64,000 nt of DNA from Acidobacteriota bacterium (GTDB taxonomy: Bacteria; Acidobacteriota; Terriglobia; Terriglobales; Acidobacteriaceae): the NCBI GenBank assembly GCA_028872955.1, contig JAGWNX010000006.1, forward strand, positions 19,568 through 83,567, read 5' to 3'. Positions 1,819 through 6,982 of the stretch are shown here, piece after piece. The notes beneath the pieces are model-generated. The model made no database searches and was not told the DNA's origin. It saw only the letters and a list, made by a program, of their open reading frames with translations. The translations under genes and the position numbers were made by a program. Within the stretch, counting starts at the first letter, position 1. Every line of letters begins with the position of its first letter.

Positions 1819-4575
1819 ATGCCTTTGTCCTGGAACGAAATACGCGACCGCGCCACCGCCTTCTCCCGCGAGTGGAAAGATGAGACCTCTGAGGACGCCG
1901 AAGCCAAATCCTTCTGGGACGCTTTCTTCAACATCTTCGGCATCTCCCGCCGCCGCATCGCCACCTTCGAGACCCCCGTCATCAAATCCGACGGCCACGG
2001 CGGCTTCATCGATCTCCTCTGGAAGGGCAAACTCGTCGTAGAGCACAAATCCCGTGGCCGAGACCTCGACCGCGCCTTCCAGCAAGCCAAGGACTACTTC
2101 CACGGCCTCGAGGATCGCGACCTCCCCCAATACGTCCTCGTCTCCGACTTCGCCCGTTTCCGCCTCTACGACCTCGACCGCGACGAAACCCACGAGTTCG
2201 CCCTCAAAGACCTCCCCAAAAACATCCGCCTCTTTGGCTTCATCGCCGGATACCAGACCCGCTCCTTCGGCCAGCAGGACCCCGTCAACATCCAGGCCGC
2301 AGAAAAGCTCGGCCAGCTCCACGACCTCCTGAAGGACGCAGGCTACCGGGGCCACCCCCTCGAACTCTTCCTCGTCCGCGTCCTCTTCTGCCTCTTCGCA
2401 GAGGACAACGCCATCTTCGAGCCCCAGCAGTTCCGCGAGTGGATCGAGCAGCGCACCGCCCAGGACGGCTCCGACCTCGGCCCCGCCCTCGCCCACCTCT
2501 TCCAGGTCCTCAACACCCCCGAAGACGCCCGCGCCAAAAACCTCGACGAGCACCTCGCCGCCTTCCGCTACATCAACGGCAAACTCTTCCTCGAGACCAT
2601 CCCCCTCACCTCTCTCGACCGCCGCATGCGCGAGATGATCCTCGACTGCAGCAGCCTCGACTGGTCCAGCATCTCCCCCGCCATCTTCGGCGCACTCTTC
2701 CAGTCCATCATGGATAAGGTCGCCCGCCGCAACCTCGGCGCACACTACACCAGCGAAACCAACATCCTCAAAGCCCTCCAGCCCCTCTTCCTCGACAGCC
2801 TCCACGCAGAGTTCCAGCGCGTCCGCCGCGACTCCAAACGTCTTATCGCATTCCACGAAAAACTCGGCAACATCCGCATCCTCGATCCCGCCTGCGGCTG
2901 CGGAAACTTCCTCGTCATCGCCTATCGCGAACTCCGCCTCCTCGAACTCGAAGTCCTCCGCGCCCTCTACAACTCCCAAGATCAGCACCTCGACGTCAGC
3001 CAGATCGTCAACGTCGATGTAGACCAGTTCTACGGCATCGAACTCGAAGAGTTCCCCGCCCAAATCGCCCAGGTCGCCCTCTGGATGACCGACCACCAGA
3101 TGAACCAGAAGGTCTCCGAAGAGTTCGGCCAATACTTCGCCCGCCTCCCCCTCAAAAAATCCCCAAACATCACCCACGGCAACGCCCTCACCCTCGACTG
3201 GGCAACCATCATCGCCCCCAAAGACCTCAGCTATATCGTGGGCAATCCACCCTTCATCGGCAAAAAGGAACAAACTGCACAGCAGAAGAGTGAGGTATTG
3301 GCGCTCTTCAGTGGCACCAAAGGTTCAGGCGTTCTGGATTATGTTTGCTGCTGGTATCTGGCTGCGGTCGACTACATGGCGACTAATAGATCAATCCGAA
3401 CCGCCTTTGTGTCAACTAACTCCATCACGCAAGGCGAACAGGTCGGAGTCCTATGGCCTGGGTTACTGCAGCGCGGTGTGTCCATAGAGTTTGCACATCG
3501 TCCTTTTCAGTGGACAAATGAAGCAAAAGGAATGGCCGCAGTTCACTGCGTGATTGTTGGCTTTAGCTTATCCAATCAAAACGAGAAGCAACTTTACGAG
3601 TACGAAACAATAAGGTCGCGCCCTAATGCTGTCACCGCGACACATATAAACCCATATCTTGTCGACGCGGTTGATGCGTTTATCGTTCGTCGAACCTGGC
3701 CTATCTGTGCGGACGCACCCGAAATGAACTACGGAAGTATGCCAATCGACAATGGTTGGCTCATCCTATCGGATAATGAGCGAAGGGAACTTCTACAAGA
3801 GGAACCGCACGCGCGACCCTACATCCGCCGCTATATGGGTGGCGAAGAATTCCTAAACGGTATTGATCGGTATTGTCTATGGCTAGTTGATATTGACCCG
3901 GCAATGTTGCGCCAGCTTCCCAGAGTATCCGTGCGTGTCGCAGGGAATAGGAAATATCGTCTGAGCAGCGACCGGCAGACGACACGAAATCTCGCGAGAA
4001 CACCAACCCTGTTTGGTGAGATACGGCAACCAAACTCAACATATCTTTTCGTTCCAAAGGTCTCGTCTGAACTCAGACGATATCTGCCAATAGGATTCAA
4101 CAAGCCCTCGATTATTGCGAGCGGTACGGCCCTAATCGTAAAAGAAGCAACAAAATTTCACTTCGGGGTACTGTCCTCTCTAATGCACAGTGCCTGGATG
4201 AGAACCGTCTGTGGACGGATGAAGTCGGACTACCAGTACTCCGCCGGCATCGTCTACAACAACTTCCCCTGGCCCGAACCCACCCCCAAACAACGCGCCG
4301 CCATCGAGACCGCCGCCCAGGCCGTCCTGGATGAGCGCGCCCGCCACCCCGACTCCACCCTCGCCGACCTCTACGACCCACTCTCCATGCCCCCCGGCCT
4401 CGTCAAAGCCCACCAGACCCTGGACCGCGCCGTGGACGCCGCCTACGGCCGTACCAACTTCAGAACCGAAGCCGAGCGCGTCGCCTTCCTGTTTACCTTG
4501 TATGAACGGTTGACCTCACTCTTCCCCACAGAGAAGAAGCCTGCGCGGCGAGGCACCCGGCGCAGGACGACGTAG
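1819..4575 (+). CDS. MmeI-like Type IIG restriction endonuclease/N6-adenine methyltransferase fusion
   Basis: PD-(D/E)XK-like IDLLWKGKLVVEHKSRG near the N-terminus, SAM motif DPACGCGNFL, catalytic NPPF, and post-TRD block GRMKSDYQYSAGIVYNNFPWP. ORF track starts at 1735; ATG at 1819 (MPLSWNEIRDRA) is the more likely start. Confidence 0.85.
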   Translation: MPLSWNEIRDRATAFSREWKDETSEDAEAKSFWDAFFNIFGISRRRIATFETPVIKSDGHGGFIDLLWKGKLVVEHKSRGRDLDRAFQQAKDYFHGLEDRDLPQYVLVSDFARFRLYDLDRDETHEFALKDLPKNIRLFGFIAGYQTRSFGQQDPVNIQAAEKLGQLHDLLKDAGYRGHPLELFLVRVLFCLFAEDNAIFEPQQFREWIEQRTAQDGSDLGPALAHLFQVLNTPEDARAKNLDEHLAAFRYINGKLFLETIPLTSLDRRMREMILDCSSLDWSSISPAIFGALFQSIMDKVARRNLGAHYTSETNILKALQPLFLDSLHAEFQRVRRDSKRLIAFHEKLGNIRILDPACGCGNFLVIAYRELRLLELEVLRALYNSQDQHLDVSQIVNVDVDQFYGIELEEFPAQIAQVALWMTDHQMNQKVSEEFGQYFARLPLKKSPNITHGNALTLDWATIIAPKDLSYIVGNPPFIGKKEQTAQQKSEVLALFSGTKGSGVLDYVCCWYLAAVDYMATNRSIRTAFVSTNSITQGEQVGVLWPGLLQRGVSIEFAHRPFQWTNEAKGMAAVHCVIVGFSLSNQNEKQLYEYETIRSRPNAVTATHINPYLVDAVDAFIVRRTWPICADAPEMNYGSMPIDNGWLILSDNERRELLQEEPHARPYIRRYMGGEEFLNGIDRYCLWLVDIDPAMLRQLPRVSVRVAGNRKYRLSSDRQTTRNLARTPTLFGEIRQPNSTYLFVPKVSSELRRYLPIGFNKPSIIASGTALIVKEATKFHFGVLSSLMHSAWMRTVCGRMKSDYQYSAGIVYNNFPWPEPTPKQRAAIETAAQAVLDERARHPDSTLADLYDPLSMPPGLVKAHQTLDRAVDAAYGRTNFRTEAERVAFLFTLYERLTSLFPTEKKPARRGTRRRTT

Positions 4576-4594
4576 GTACCCTGGCCCACCCGGC

Positions 4595-6982
4595 CTACGT
4601 CTTCTGCACGCGGTGGACATCCCGCACACCGCTTACCTTGCGCAGGTTCTGCACCAGCTTGTTCAGGTGCCGCAGGTCGAGCGTCTCCACCACAAACTCC
4701 ACCGCCGCCGTGCCATCGTCCAGCCCGCGCGACTCCATGCTGCGGATGTTCGTCCCGTCCTCCGCGATGATGGCCGTAAACTCCTTCAGCAGGCCGGCGC
4801 GGTCGTCGCAGATGACCGTGAGCTTCACCGGGTAGGTGGGCTGCTTCTCCTTGCCCGGTTCGGTCGGCATCGGCGCCCACTCCACCTGGATGCGGCGGTC
4901 CGACTCGTACAGCAGGTTCTGGACGTTGGGGCAGCTGCGCGCATGCACGGCCACACCCTTGCCGCGCGTCACGTAGCCGATGATCTCCTCGCCGCGAATC
5001 GGATTGCAGCAGCGCGCGCGGTACACCAGCAGGTCGTCCTGCCCCTCCACCTGCAGCGACTCCGAACCCTTGCTGAAGTAGACGCGCTTGACCGCCTCCG
5101 ACATCTGGCTGGCAGGCCCGGTTGCCGCAGCCTCCGGCGTCGCCACCTCGTCCGCCATCGTCGAGCCCGGCTCCAGCCGATTCAGAATCTGGCGCGCCGA
5201 GTACTTGCCAAAGCCGATGCCCGCCAGCAGCTCCGGCTGGCCGCCCAGGCCATACTCGCCGGCCACCTTCGTAAACTCCGCCTCGCCAAACTTATGCAGG
5301 CTGATCTTGTACTTGCGCGCCTCGCGCTCCAGCAGCTTGCGGCCAATCTCGATCGCGCGTTGACGCTCATGCTCGTTCAGCCAATGCTTGATCTTGTTGC
5401 GCGCACGCGAGCTCTTGGTAAAGCTCAGCCAGTCACGGCTGGGCGCGTGGCCGACCTGCGTGCTGATCTCCACAATGTCGCCATTGCGCAGCTTGGTGCG
5501 CAGCGGCACCATGCGCCCATTCACCTTGGCCCCCACCGTGGAGTTGCCCACCTCCGTGTGGATGGCATAGGCGAAGTCCACCGGGCTGGCATCCTTGGGC
5601 AGCACCACCACCTTGCCCTTGGGCGTAAAGGTGTACACCTCCTCCGGGTACAGGTCGATCTTGAGCGTCGACATGAACTCGTTGGGGTCCTGCATCTCGC
5701 GCTGCCACTCCATCAACTGCCGCACCCAGGCCAGGCGCTGCTCGTCCTTGGCCGAGACGTTGTCGGTCGCCTTGTACTTCCAGTGCGCGGCAATGCCCTC
5801 CTCCGCCACACGATGCATATCTTCGGTGCGGATCTGGACCTCAAACTGGTGCCCGCCCGGCGCAATCAGCGTGGTATGCAGGCTCTGGTACATGTTGGGC
5901 CGGGGCATGGCGATAAAGTCCTTAATGCGCCCCGGCACCGGCCGCCAGATGCTGTGCAGCAGCCCCAGCAGCGCATAGCAGTCCTGCACCGTCTCCACAA
6001 TCACCCGCACCGCCAGCAGGTCATACACCTGATCGACCGGCAGCTTCTGGTCAGCCAGCTTCTGCTGGATCGAGTACAGACGCTTGATGCGCGACTCCAC
6101 CCGGCCGCGAATCTTGTGCTCGCGAAGCTTCTCCTCCAGCTCCGCCACCACCTTCTGCAAAAACTCCTCGCCCGGCCCGCGCAGCGTATCCACCTCAGAG
6201 GAGAGCTGGTCGTAGGTGATGGGGTCGGTGTAGCGAAAGGCCAGGTCCTCCAGCTCGCCACGCAGCTTGCCCATGCCCAGCCGATGCGCCAGCGGCGCGT
6301 ACACATCCAGCGTCTCGCGGGCGATCTTCTGCTGCTTCTCCGGCTTCAGATGCTCCAGCGTGCGCATGTTGTGCAGCCGGTCGGCCAGCTTGATGATGAC
6401 CACGCGTACATCCGTCACCATCGCCAGCAGCATCTTGCGGATGTTCTCCGCCTGGTGGTCCTCGCGGTTGGCAAACTTGATCTTGTCGAGCTTGGTGACG
6501 CCCTCGACGATGTGCGCCACCTGGTCGTTGAACCGTCGCGCAATCTCGGCCGAGGTCACGTTCGTGTCCTCTACCGCATCGTGCAGCAGCCCGGCGGCAA
6601 TCGCCGTGGCGTCCATCTTCAGCTCGGCCAGCACCTGCCCGACCTCCAGCGGATGGATCACATACGGCTCACCGCTGGCACGCTTCTGGCCCTCATGCTG
6701 CATCAGGCAAAACGCCCACGCTTTGCGGATCAGCTCCAGGTCATCGCCGGGCCGGTTCTCCTTCACCGTAGCCAGCAACTTCTCAAACTTTGCCTGGTAA
6801 AGATGACTCTCGTCCGCAACCGGCGCATCTGGCCGGGTGGCAACCTCCGCAGCGGCAGGCGACGCAGCACTCTCCGCTACCGCCGACGGCGGTGCCTCGG
6901 CCGTCACCGGCGGCGGCGTAAAACCGCGCGGCCCACTGGGCTGCCTCCCTGCCTCGCTTGAGGCCGGCTTATTGGATGCCAT
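4595..6982 (-). CDS. Bifunctional (p)ppGpp synthetase/hydrolase RelA/SpoT family
   Basis: HD domain (HPLEVGQVLAELKMDATAIAAGLLHDAVEDT), synthetase domain, TGS (VYTFTPKGKVVVLPKDASPVDFAYAIHTEVG) and C-terminal ACT domain. Confidence 0.95.
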   Translation of the reverse strand: MASNKPASSEAGRQPSGPRGFTPPPVTAEAPPSAVAESAASPAAAEVATRPDAPVADESHLYQAKFEKLLATVKENRPGDDLELIRKAWAFCLMQHEGQKRASGEPYVIHPLEVGQVLAELKMDATAIAAGLLHDAVEDTNVTSAEIARRFNDQVAHIVEGVTKLDKIKFANREDHQAENIRKMLLAMVTDVRVVIIKLADRLHNMRTLEHLKPEKQQKIARETLDVYAPLAHRLGMGKLRGELEDLAFRYTDPITYDQLSSEVDTLRGPGEEFLQKVVAELEEKLREHKIRGRVESRIKRLYSIQQKLADQKLPVDQVYDLLAVRVIVETVQDCYALLGLLHSIWRPVPGRIKDFIAMPRPNMYQSLHTTLIAPGGHQFEVQIRTEDMHRVAEEGIAAHWKYKATDNVSAKDEQRLAWVRQLMEWQREMQDPNEFMSTLKIDLYPEEVYTFTPKGKVVVLPKDASPVDFAYAIHTEVGNSTVGAKVNGRMVPLRTKLRNGDIVEISTQVGHAPSRDWLSFTKSSRARNKIKHWLNEHERQRAIEIGRKLLEREARKYKISLHKFGEAEFTKVAGEYGLGGQPELLAGIGFGKYSARQILNRLEPGSTMADEVATPEAAATGPASQMSEAVKRVYFSKGSESLQVEGQDDLLVYRARCCNPIRGEEIIGYVTRGKGVAVHARSCPNVQNLLYESDRRIQVEWAPMPTEPGKEKQPTYPVKLTVICDDRAGLLKEFTAIIAEDGTNIRSMESRGLDDGTAAVEFVVETLDLRHLNKLVQNLRKVSGVRDVHRVQKT

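Follow-up and report, generated by a model that had tools for sequence, protein, structure and literature searches.

A single-chain restriction-methylation gene of the MmeI family whose central specificity cassette differs in origin from its backbone

Can the parts of one continuous reading frame have different histories? The window analyzed here, a 64,000-nucleotide stretch of an Acidobacteriota genome assembly, raises this question because it contains a Type IIL/IIG restriction-methylation gene of the MmeI family (1819–4575, forward strand) whose middle is clearly poorer in G and C than both ends. The gene encodes 918 residues with five MmeI Pfam domains. Its product starts with MPLSWNEIR, compared with MALSWNEIR in MmeI, matches the PADLOC profile REase_MTase_IIG with E=0, and aligns to MmeI (5hr4) over its full length with 1150 bits. 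With domain limits set by alignment to MmeI (PMC4833311), the order is nuclease, helical region, methyltransferase, target-recognition domain (TRD), and C-terminal helices, as is typical of the family. The backbone consists of a PD-(D/E)XK endonuclease domain (1819–2283; MmeI_N, with D65...E75-H-K77 at 2011–2049), a helical spacer (2284–2718; MmeI_hel), the N-terminal half of a gamma-class N6-adenine methyltransferase (2719–3231), which carries the AdoMet motif DPACGCGNF and silent sites hyperbiased toward C, and a C-terminal helical domain (4276–4572; MmeI_C). Between them lies a cassette (3232–4227) comprising the C-terminal half of the methyltransferase (3232–3663) and nearly all of the TRD (3664–4227). 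The PD-(D/E)XK, AdoMet, and NPPF motifs, aligned to those of MmeI, are all intact, and the reading frame is open across both joints of the cassette. Judged from its sequence, the gene very probably encodes an intact single-chain MmeI-type enzyme whose central cassette was exchanged for one from MmeI-family alleles of other bacteria. The N-terminal nuclease and the adenine methyltransferase would be steered by the single TRD, which is predicted to direct both cutting and the protective methylation of one strand.

The change in composition is abrupt. GC content falls from about 0.60–0.67 to 0.49–0.53 between about 3150 and 4200 and then returns to 0.67, and GC at third codon positions (GC3) drops from about 0.8–0.96 to 0.44–0.54 before recovering to 0.8–0.92. 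C at the third codon position is the best marker of the change. A two-breakpoint fit on C-ending codons placed the segment at 3232–4227, with a C-ending fraction of 0.34 inside and 0.89 outside, and exceeded the uniform model by a delta lnL of 117. Support extended over 3220–3274 for the 5' joint and 4218–4236 for the 3' joint. The contrast of the middle segment reached z = -12 upon shuffling of synonymous codons, and the GC3 contrast (z -11.2) was the strongest among 32 long open reading frames of the window, which were picked by a simple rule and might include some that are not genes (next |z| 7.8). A sequence-only reading had located an AT-richer middle at 3240–4220, only a few bases from the fitted limits, and its expectation that a sliding window would reveal falling and recovering GC and codon usage there was borne out. 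It had also placed the two transitions at conserved motifs, where we find them as well: the 5' joint at the catalytic NPPF motif (3244–3255), where identity to the sister genes also drops, and the 3' joint inside the GRMKSDYQYSAGIVYNNFPWP block (4213–4275), at the residues K802/D804 that map to position 6 of the recognition word.

The evolutionary trees of the separate segments carry the argument further than composition can. In the backbone tree, the gene groups with L045 (a Granulicella MAG), L046, L049, and G056, all acidobacterial, with an SH-aLRT of 99. In the tree of the middle segment, it pairs with G056 at 99, followed by the Smithella gene L047 and the Chromatium okenii genes L070 and L104 (five rows, 97), and the module of L045 groups with beta- and delta-proteobacterial modules. 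For a set of 17 taxa, which was picked after the large trees had been seen, the data of the N-terminal region rejected the tree of the middle segment (delta lnL 717, AU p<1e-4), and the data of the middle segment rejected the N-terminal tree (delta lnL 417, AU p<1e-4). In the same set, the C-terminal region sided with the N-terminal backbone, preferring its tree (delta 26, SH p 0.195, AU p 0.02) over that of the middle segment (delta 125, rejected). Quick trees of 99 taxa gave p values of 0.06–0.26 in the two-tree AU test, short of significance at 0.05 despite delta lnL of 31–85. Identity to the backbone sisters likewise falls from about 80–85% outside to 48–66% between the anchors. It is thus well supported that the cassette has an evolutionary origin other than that of the backbone on either side. 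The backbone fragment of G056 is 96% identical to L045, and its module is 73% identical in amino acids to the cassette studied here; the two lie on separate contigs. Since the backbone of G056 resembles L045 and its module resembles that of the window, at least one swap must be younger than the split of L045 and G056, provided that the two contigs of G056 represent one gene. This swap may have taken place on the L045 branch. At L125 (G056:C277:36000-40500), an MmeI-type gene of G056 is interrupted by an N gap after its N-terminal half; past the gap follow an apparent further methyltransferase and an MT-A70-like gene, and the C-terminal part opens another contig just before NPPF.

The same joints recur across the family, in unrelated pairs of genes. 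The Lysobacter genes L075 and L076 are about 90% identical in DNA up to NPPF, about 50% over most of the cassette, and 91% thereafter, and the identity of the pairs L078/L102 and L042/L035 drops at the same joints at the DNA level. The pairs L052/L055 and L079/L067 have exchanged only the TRD part, from about residue 600. Among 107 pairs from 65 genes, the fitted 5' joints cluster at residues 441–489 and 560–629, and the 3' joints lie mostly at 770–800. We also found pairs from different groups whose TRDs are more alike than their backbones, such as L048/L094 (63% in the N-terminal region and 77% in the TRD). In MmeI, base contacts extend from K487/S488/K489, just after NPPF, through R810 (PMC4833311). 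Nearly all the equivalent positions lie in the cassette at 3232–4227, the last one, R810, falling at the 3' joint. The exchanged unit is a long cassette of the methyltransferase C-terminal half and the TRD, which brackets the base contacts of MmeI. Recombination within two conserved stretches of coding sequence, NPPF and GR-K-S-D-Y-YSAGIVYNNFPWP, would bring the cassettes in. The earlier suggestion that half a methyltransferase and the TRD were swapped together through two conserved anchors stands, given the conflicting segment trees, the drop in identity, and the base-contact code of distant modules.

The notion of a native backbone with a foreign insert has to be rejected as stated because the flanks are not host-like either. 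At the four-fold degenerate sites of the backbone (1819–3231 and 4228–4572), C accounts for 86% and G for 4%, CTC makes up 88% of leucine codons, and AAA is preferred over AAG. In the host, four-fold sites have on average 42% C and 39% G, with C at most 70% among 128 open reading frames from sampled stretches of the same genome, ribosomal genes included, and, unlike the backbone, the ribosomal genes mostly use CTG and AAG. The silent C/G composition of the backbone falls outside all 128 of these reading frames. Flanks dominated by CTC, GAC, and TTC had been described from the letters, and the preference for CTC is indeed strong, but such flanks are themselves abnormal for this host. As the composition of the cassette differs too, the gene joins two non-host compositions. 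The C bias of the backbone is weaker in L045 (0.71) and G056 (0.67) than here (0.86); the hyperbias ends at the joints in the present gene and, less strongly, in L045.

The gene stands alone between trpB (271–1494) and a relA/spoT-type gene (4595–6982), both on the opposite strand, and no partner methyltransferase lies alongside. In at least ten congeners, relA adjoins trpB across an interval of about 250–270 bp that contains no MmeI-type gene, which makes insertion of the entire gene at this place the simplest explanation. This interval, represented here by 1495–1818 and 4576–4594, is a variable insertion spot. By eye, it holds unrelated genes in some congeners, namely a multicopper-oxidase-like pair and a CRP-like regulator.

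An explanation without any exchange would be that the middle evolves faster, under diversifying selection on specificity, and that low GC3 is intrinsic to this half of MmeI-family genes. Family-wide data lend it some weight. We compared 95 homologues having both regions, from Acidobacteriota, Proteobacteria, Thermodesulfobacteriota, Bacteroidota, and others. GC3 corrected for amino-acid usage was lower in the middle than in the flanks in 94 of them (mean -0.17), the present gene being the most extreme (-0.38); with four-fold sites only, the shift was negative in 100 of 105 and our gene ranked fourth. The middle columns are also more variable, and the GC3 of the TRD follows that of the backbone in every GC class, with an offset of -0.12 to -0.24. 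However, the AT shift amounts to -0.15 at nearly invariant columns and -0.17 at the most variable ones. Because the shift is equal at invariant residues, it does not stem from rapidly evolving sites, and its presence in all entropy classes also rules out conservation or translation accuracy as the cause. Nor would faster evolution account for whole contact codes common to modules on distant backbones, TRDs closer than backbones in pairs such as L048/L094, the abrupt fall and return of DNA identity, or segment trees that reject each other in the 17-taxon set. We consider this explanation very unlikely. A cassette joined artificially, with MmeI-type genes of two strains fused at the conserved blocks during assembly, seems even less probable. 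The assembly does consist of 207 contigs, and one of the approximately 330 contigs of the relative G056 begins just before NPPF. Two separate chimeric joins would nonetheless be required, both preserving an open frame; moreover, the 3' joint with the same type of module recurs on a single contig of G056, and the pattern is found in genomes of named strains, such as Lysobacter.

Least probable of all, and very improbable in our view, is programmed switching of specificity from silent cassettes within the genome, as in phase-variable hsdS loci. Such switching would fit the modular layout. However, the gene is flanked by trpB and relA, a search of the whole genome found a single MmeI-type gene with a single MmeI_TRD and no second or silent cassette, and direct repeats were absent across 3100–4400. 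Without flanking repeats and a second copy, the specificity switching proposed in the sequence-only reading is unlikely. A private and recent event is not supported either. As the composition drop is common to 94 of the 95 homologues, composition alone cannot show one, and the deduction of a private recent swap from GC alone is rejected. The closest module found in any other backbone was the 73% identical one of G056, and the best among plasmids, phages, and viral contigs reached about 50%; no phage or plasmid donor was found. A donor or a near-identical module would be needed for a date, but not for the different ancestry of the cassette. That reading had itself proposed that a drop common to close relatives with congruent trees would speak against a swap. 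The drop is indeed common to the relatives, but the trees are incongruent, and the outcome points to recurrent exchange throughout the family.

The family-wide shift has edges of its own, at about residues 470 and 810. It is shallower over the C-terminal half of the methyltransferase (about -0.11) than over the TRD (about -0.20), and pairs with N-terminal backbones at least 90% identical retain a mean identity of 78% in the former and 59% in the latter. The depth of the shift follows the order of exchange, which we read as recurrent import. The data did not support a composition specific to TRD lineages, with r=0.08 for related TRDs carried by different backbones, and a smaller shift in copies from viral contigs was not significant (+0.048, SE 0.041). 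We tentatively suggest that the cassette from NPPF to GRxxSxYxYS might be a genetic unit of its own across the MmeI family, AT-shifted in nearly every host, a possibility to which we give distinctly less than even weight. The cause would be either that the cassette circulates in a mobile pool richer in AT, or that its alleles are too divergent for the homologous recombination that keeps the silent sites of the backbone GC-rich. If so, each gene of the family would carry its own control for the factors that determine bacterial GC content. A shift that is bounded within one gene and equal at invariant residues allows import from AT-rich pools to be tested against recombination-linked GC bias inside a single gene. 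A cassette that occurs family-wide and keeps a constant AT shift appears to be new, as we found no prior description in the open-licence literature. The exchange of TRDs is of a known kind, and the present gene is a new member of the MmeI family that shows a variant of it.

Type III mod genes provide one precedent. As far as the account in PMC3983042 goes, citing Furuta and Kobayashi 2012, their TRDs move across species by recombination at weakly similar DNA encoding conserved methyltransferase motifs. The likeness to that account lies in cross-species TRD replacement through such motif DNA; the differences from it are that the enzyme here combines restriction and methylation in a single chain, that half of the methyltransferase domain belongs to the exchanged unit, and that the MmeI family also has a second 5' joint near the methyltransferase/TRD border. 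Type I hsdS genes likewise have AT-rich TRDs between conserved blocks, but encode a separate specificity subunit whose chain has two TRDs and lacks domains for restriction or methylation. In hsdS of EcoKI (E. coli K-12, L156:4569-5963), GC3 is mostly about 0.12–0.26 in TRD windows, against 0.66 in hsdM and close to the conserved C-terminal end.

MmeI itself (TCCRAC 20/18; PDB 5HR4), of Type IIL, has the same five-domain chain with the same motifs kept, but differs in most base-contact residues (e.g., the equivalents of K645M and E806K/R808D), so a different word is predicted for our gene. The family methylates adenine at N6 on one strand and cuts about 20 nt downstream. We mapped the contacts as R719, G733, and E734 (position 1), Y638/M641 (position 2), K747/G769 (position 3), T770/Q806 (position 4), and K802/D804 (position 6). 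The resulting code, R-E / Y-M / K-G / T-Q / K-D, is the same in G056 and Smithella L047. By the rules of PMC4833311 (R with E for C at 1, Y with M for A at 2, and K-D for G at 6), the predicted word would be approximately 5'-CA(G)(A)AG-3', with methylation at the A in position 5; we are moderately sure of positions 1, 2, and 6, and the G at 3 and the A at 4 are guesses. The backbone sisters carry other codes (A-Q / F-M / R-D / Q-R / K-D in L045 and R-E / F-M / S-N / L-R / K-D in L046 and L049), so the exchange should have changed the word. Because the cassette spans the equivalents of MmeI K487 to R810, one exchange would replace it for restriction and modification together. The part of a one-gene restriction system that nature exchanges is thus not limited to the TRD but takes in every base-contacting element, beginning directly behind NPPF and ending at the last contact. 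Its limits can serve as a guide, provided by nature, for grafting cassettes into MmeI-type enzymes, in which altering the residues for base position 1 yielded no active enzyme (PMC4833311). The cassettes of L070 and L104, from two strains of Chromatium okenii, are nearly identical, but their position-6 pairs (residues 795–812) are E-R and K-D. It looks as though conversion of only the 3' anchor had altered one base of the word.
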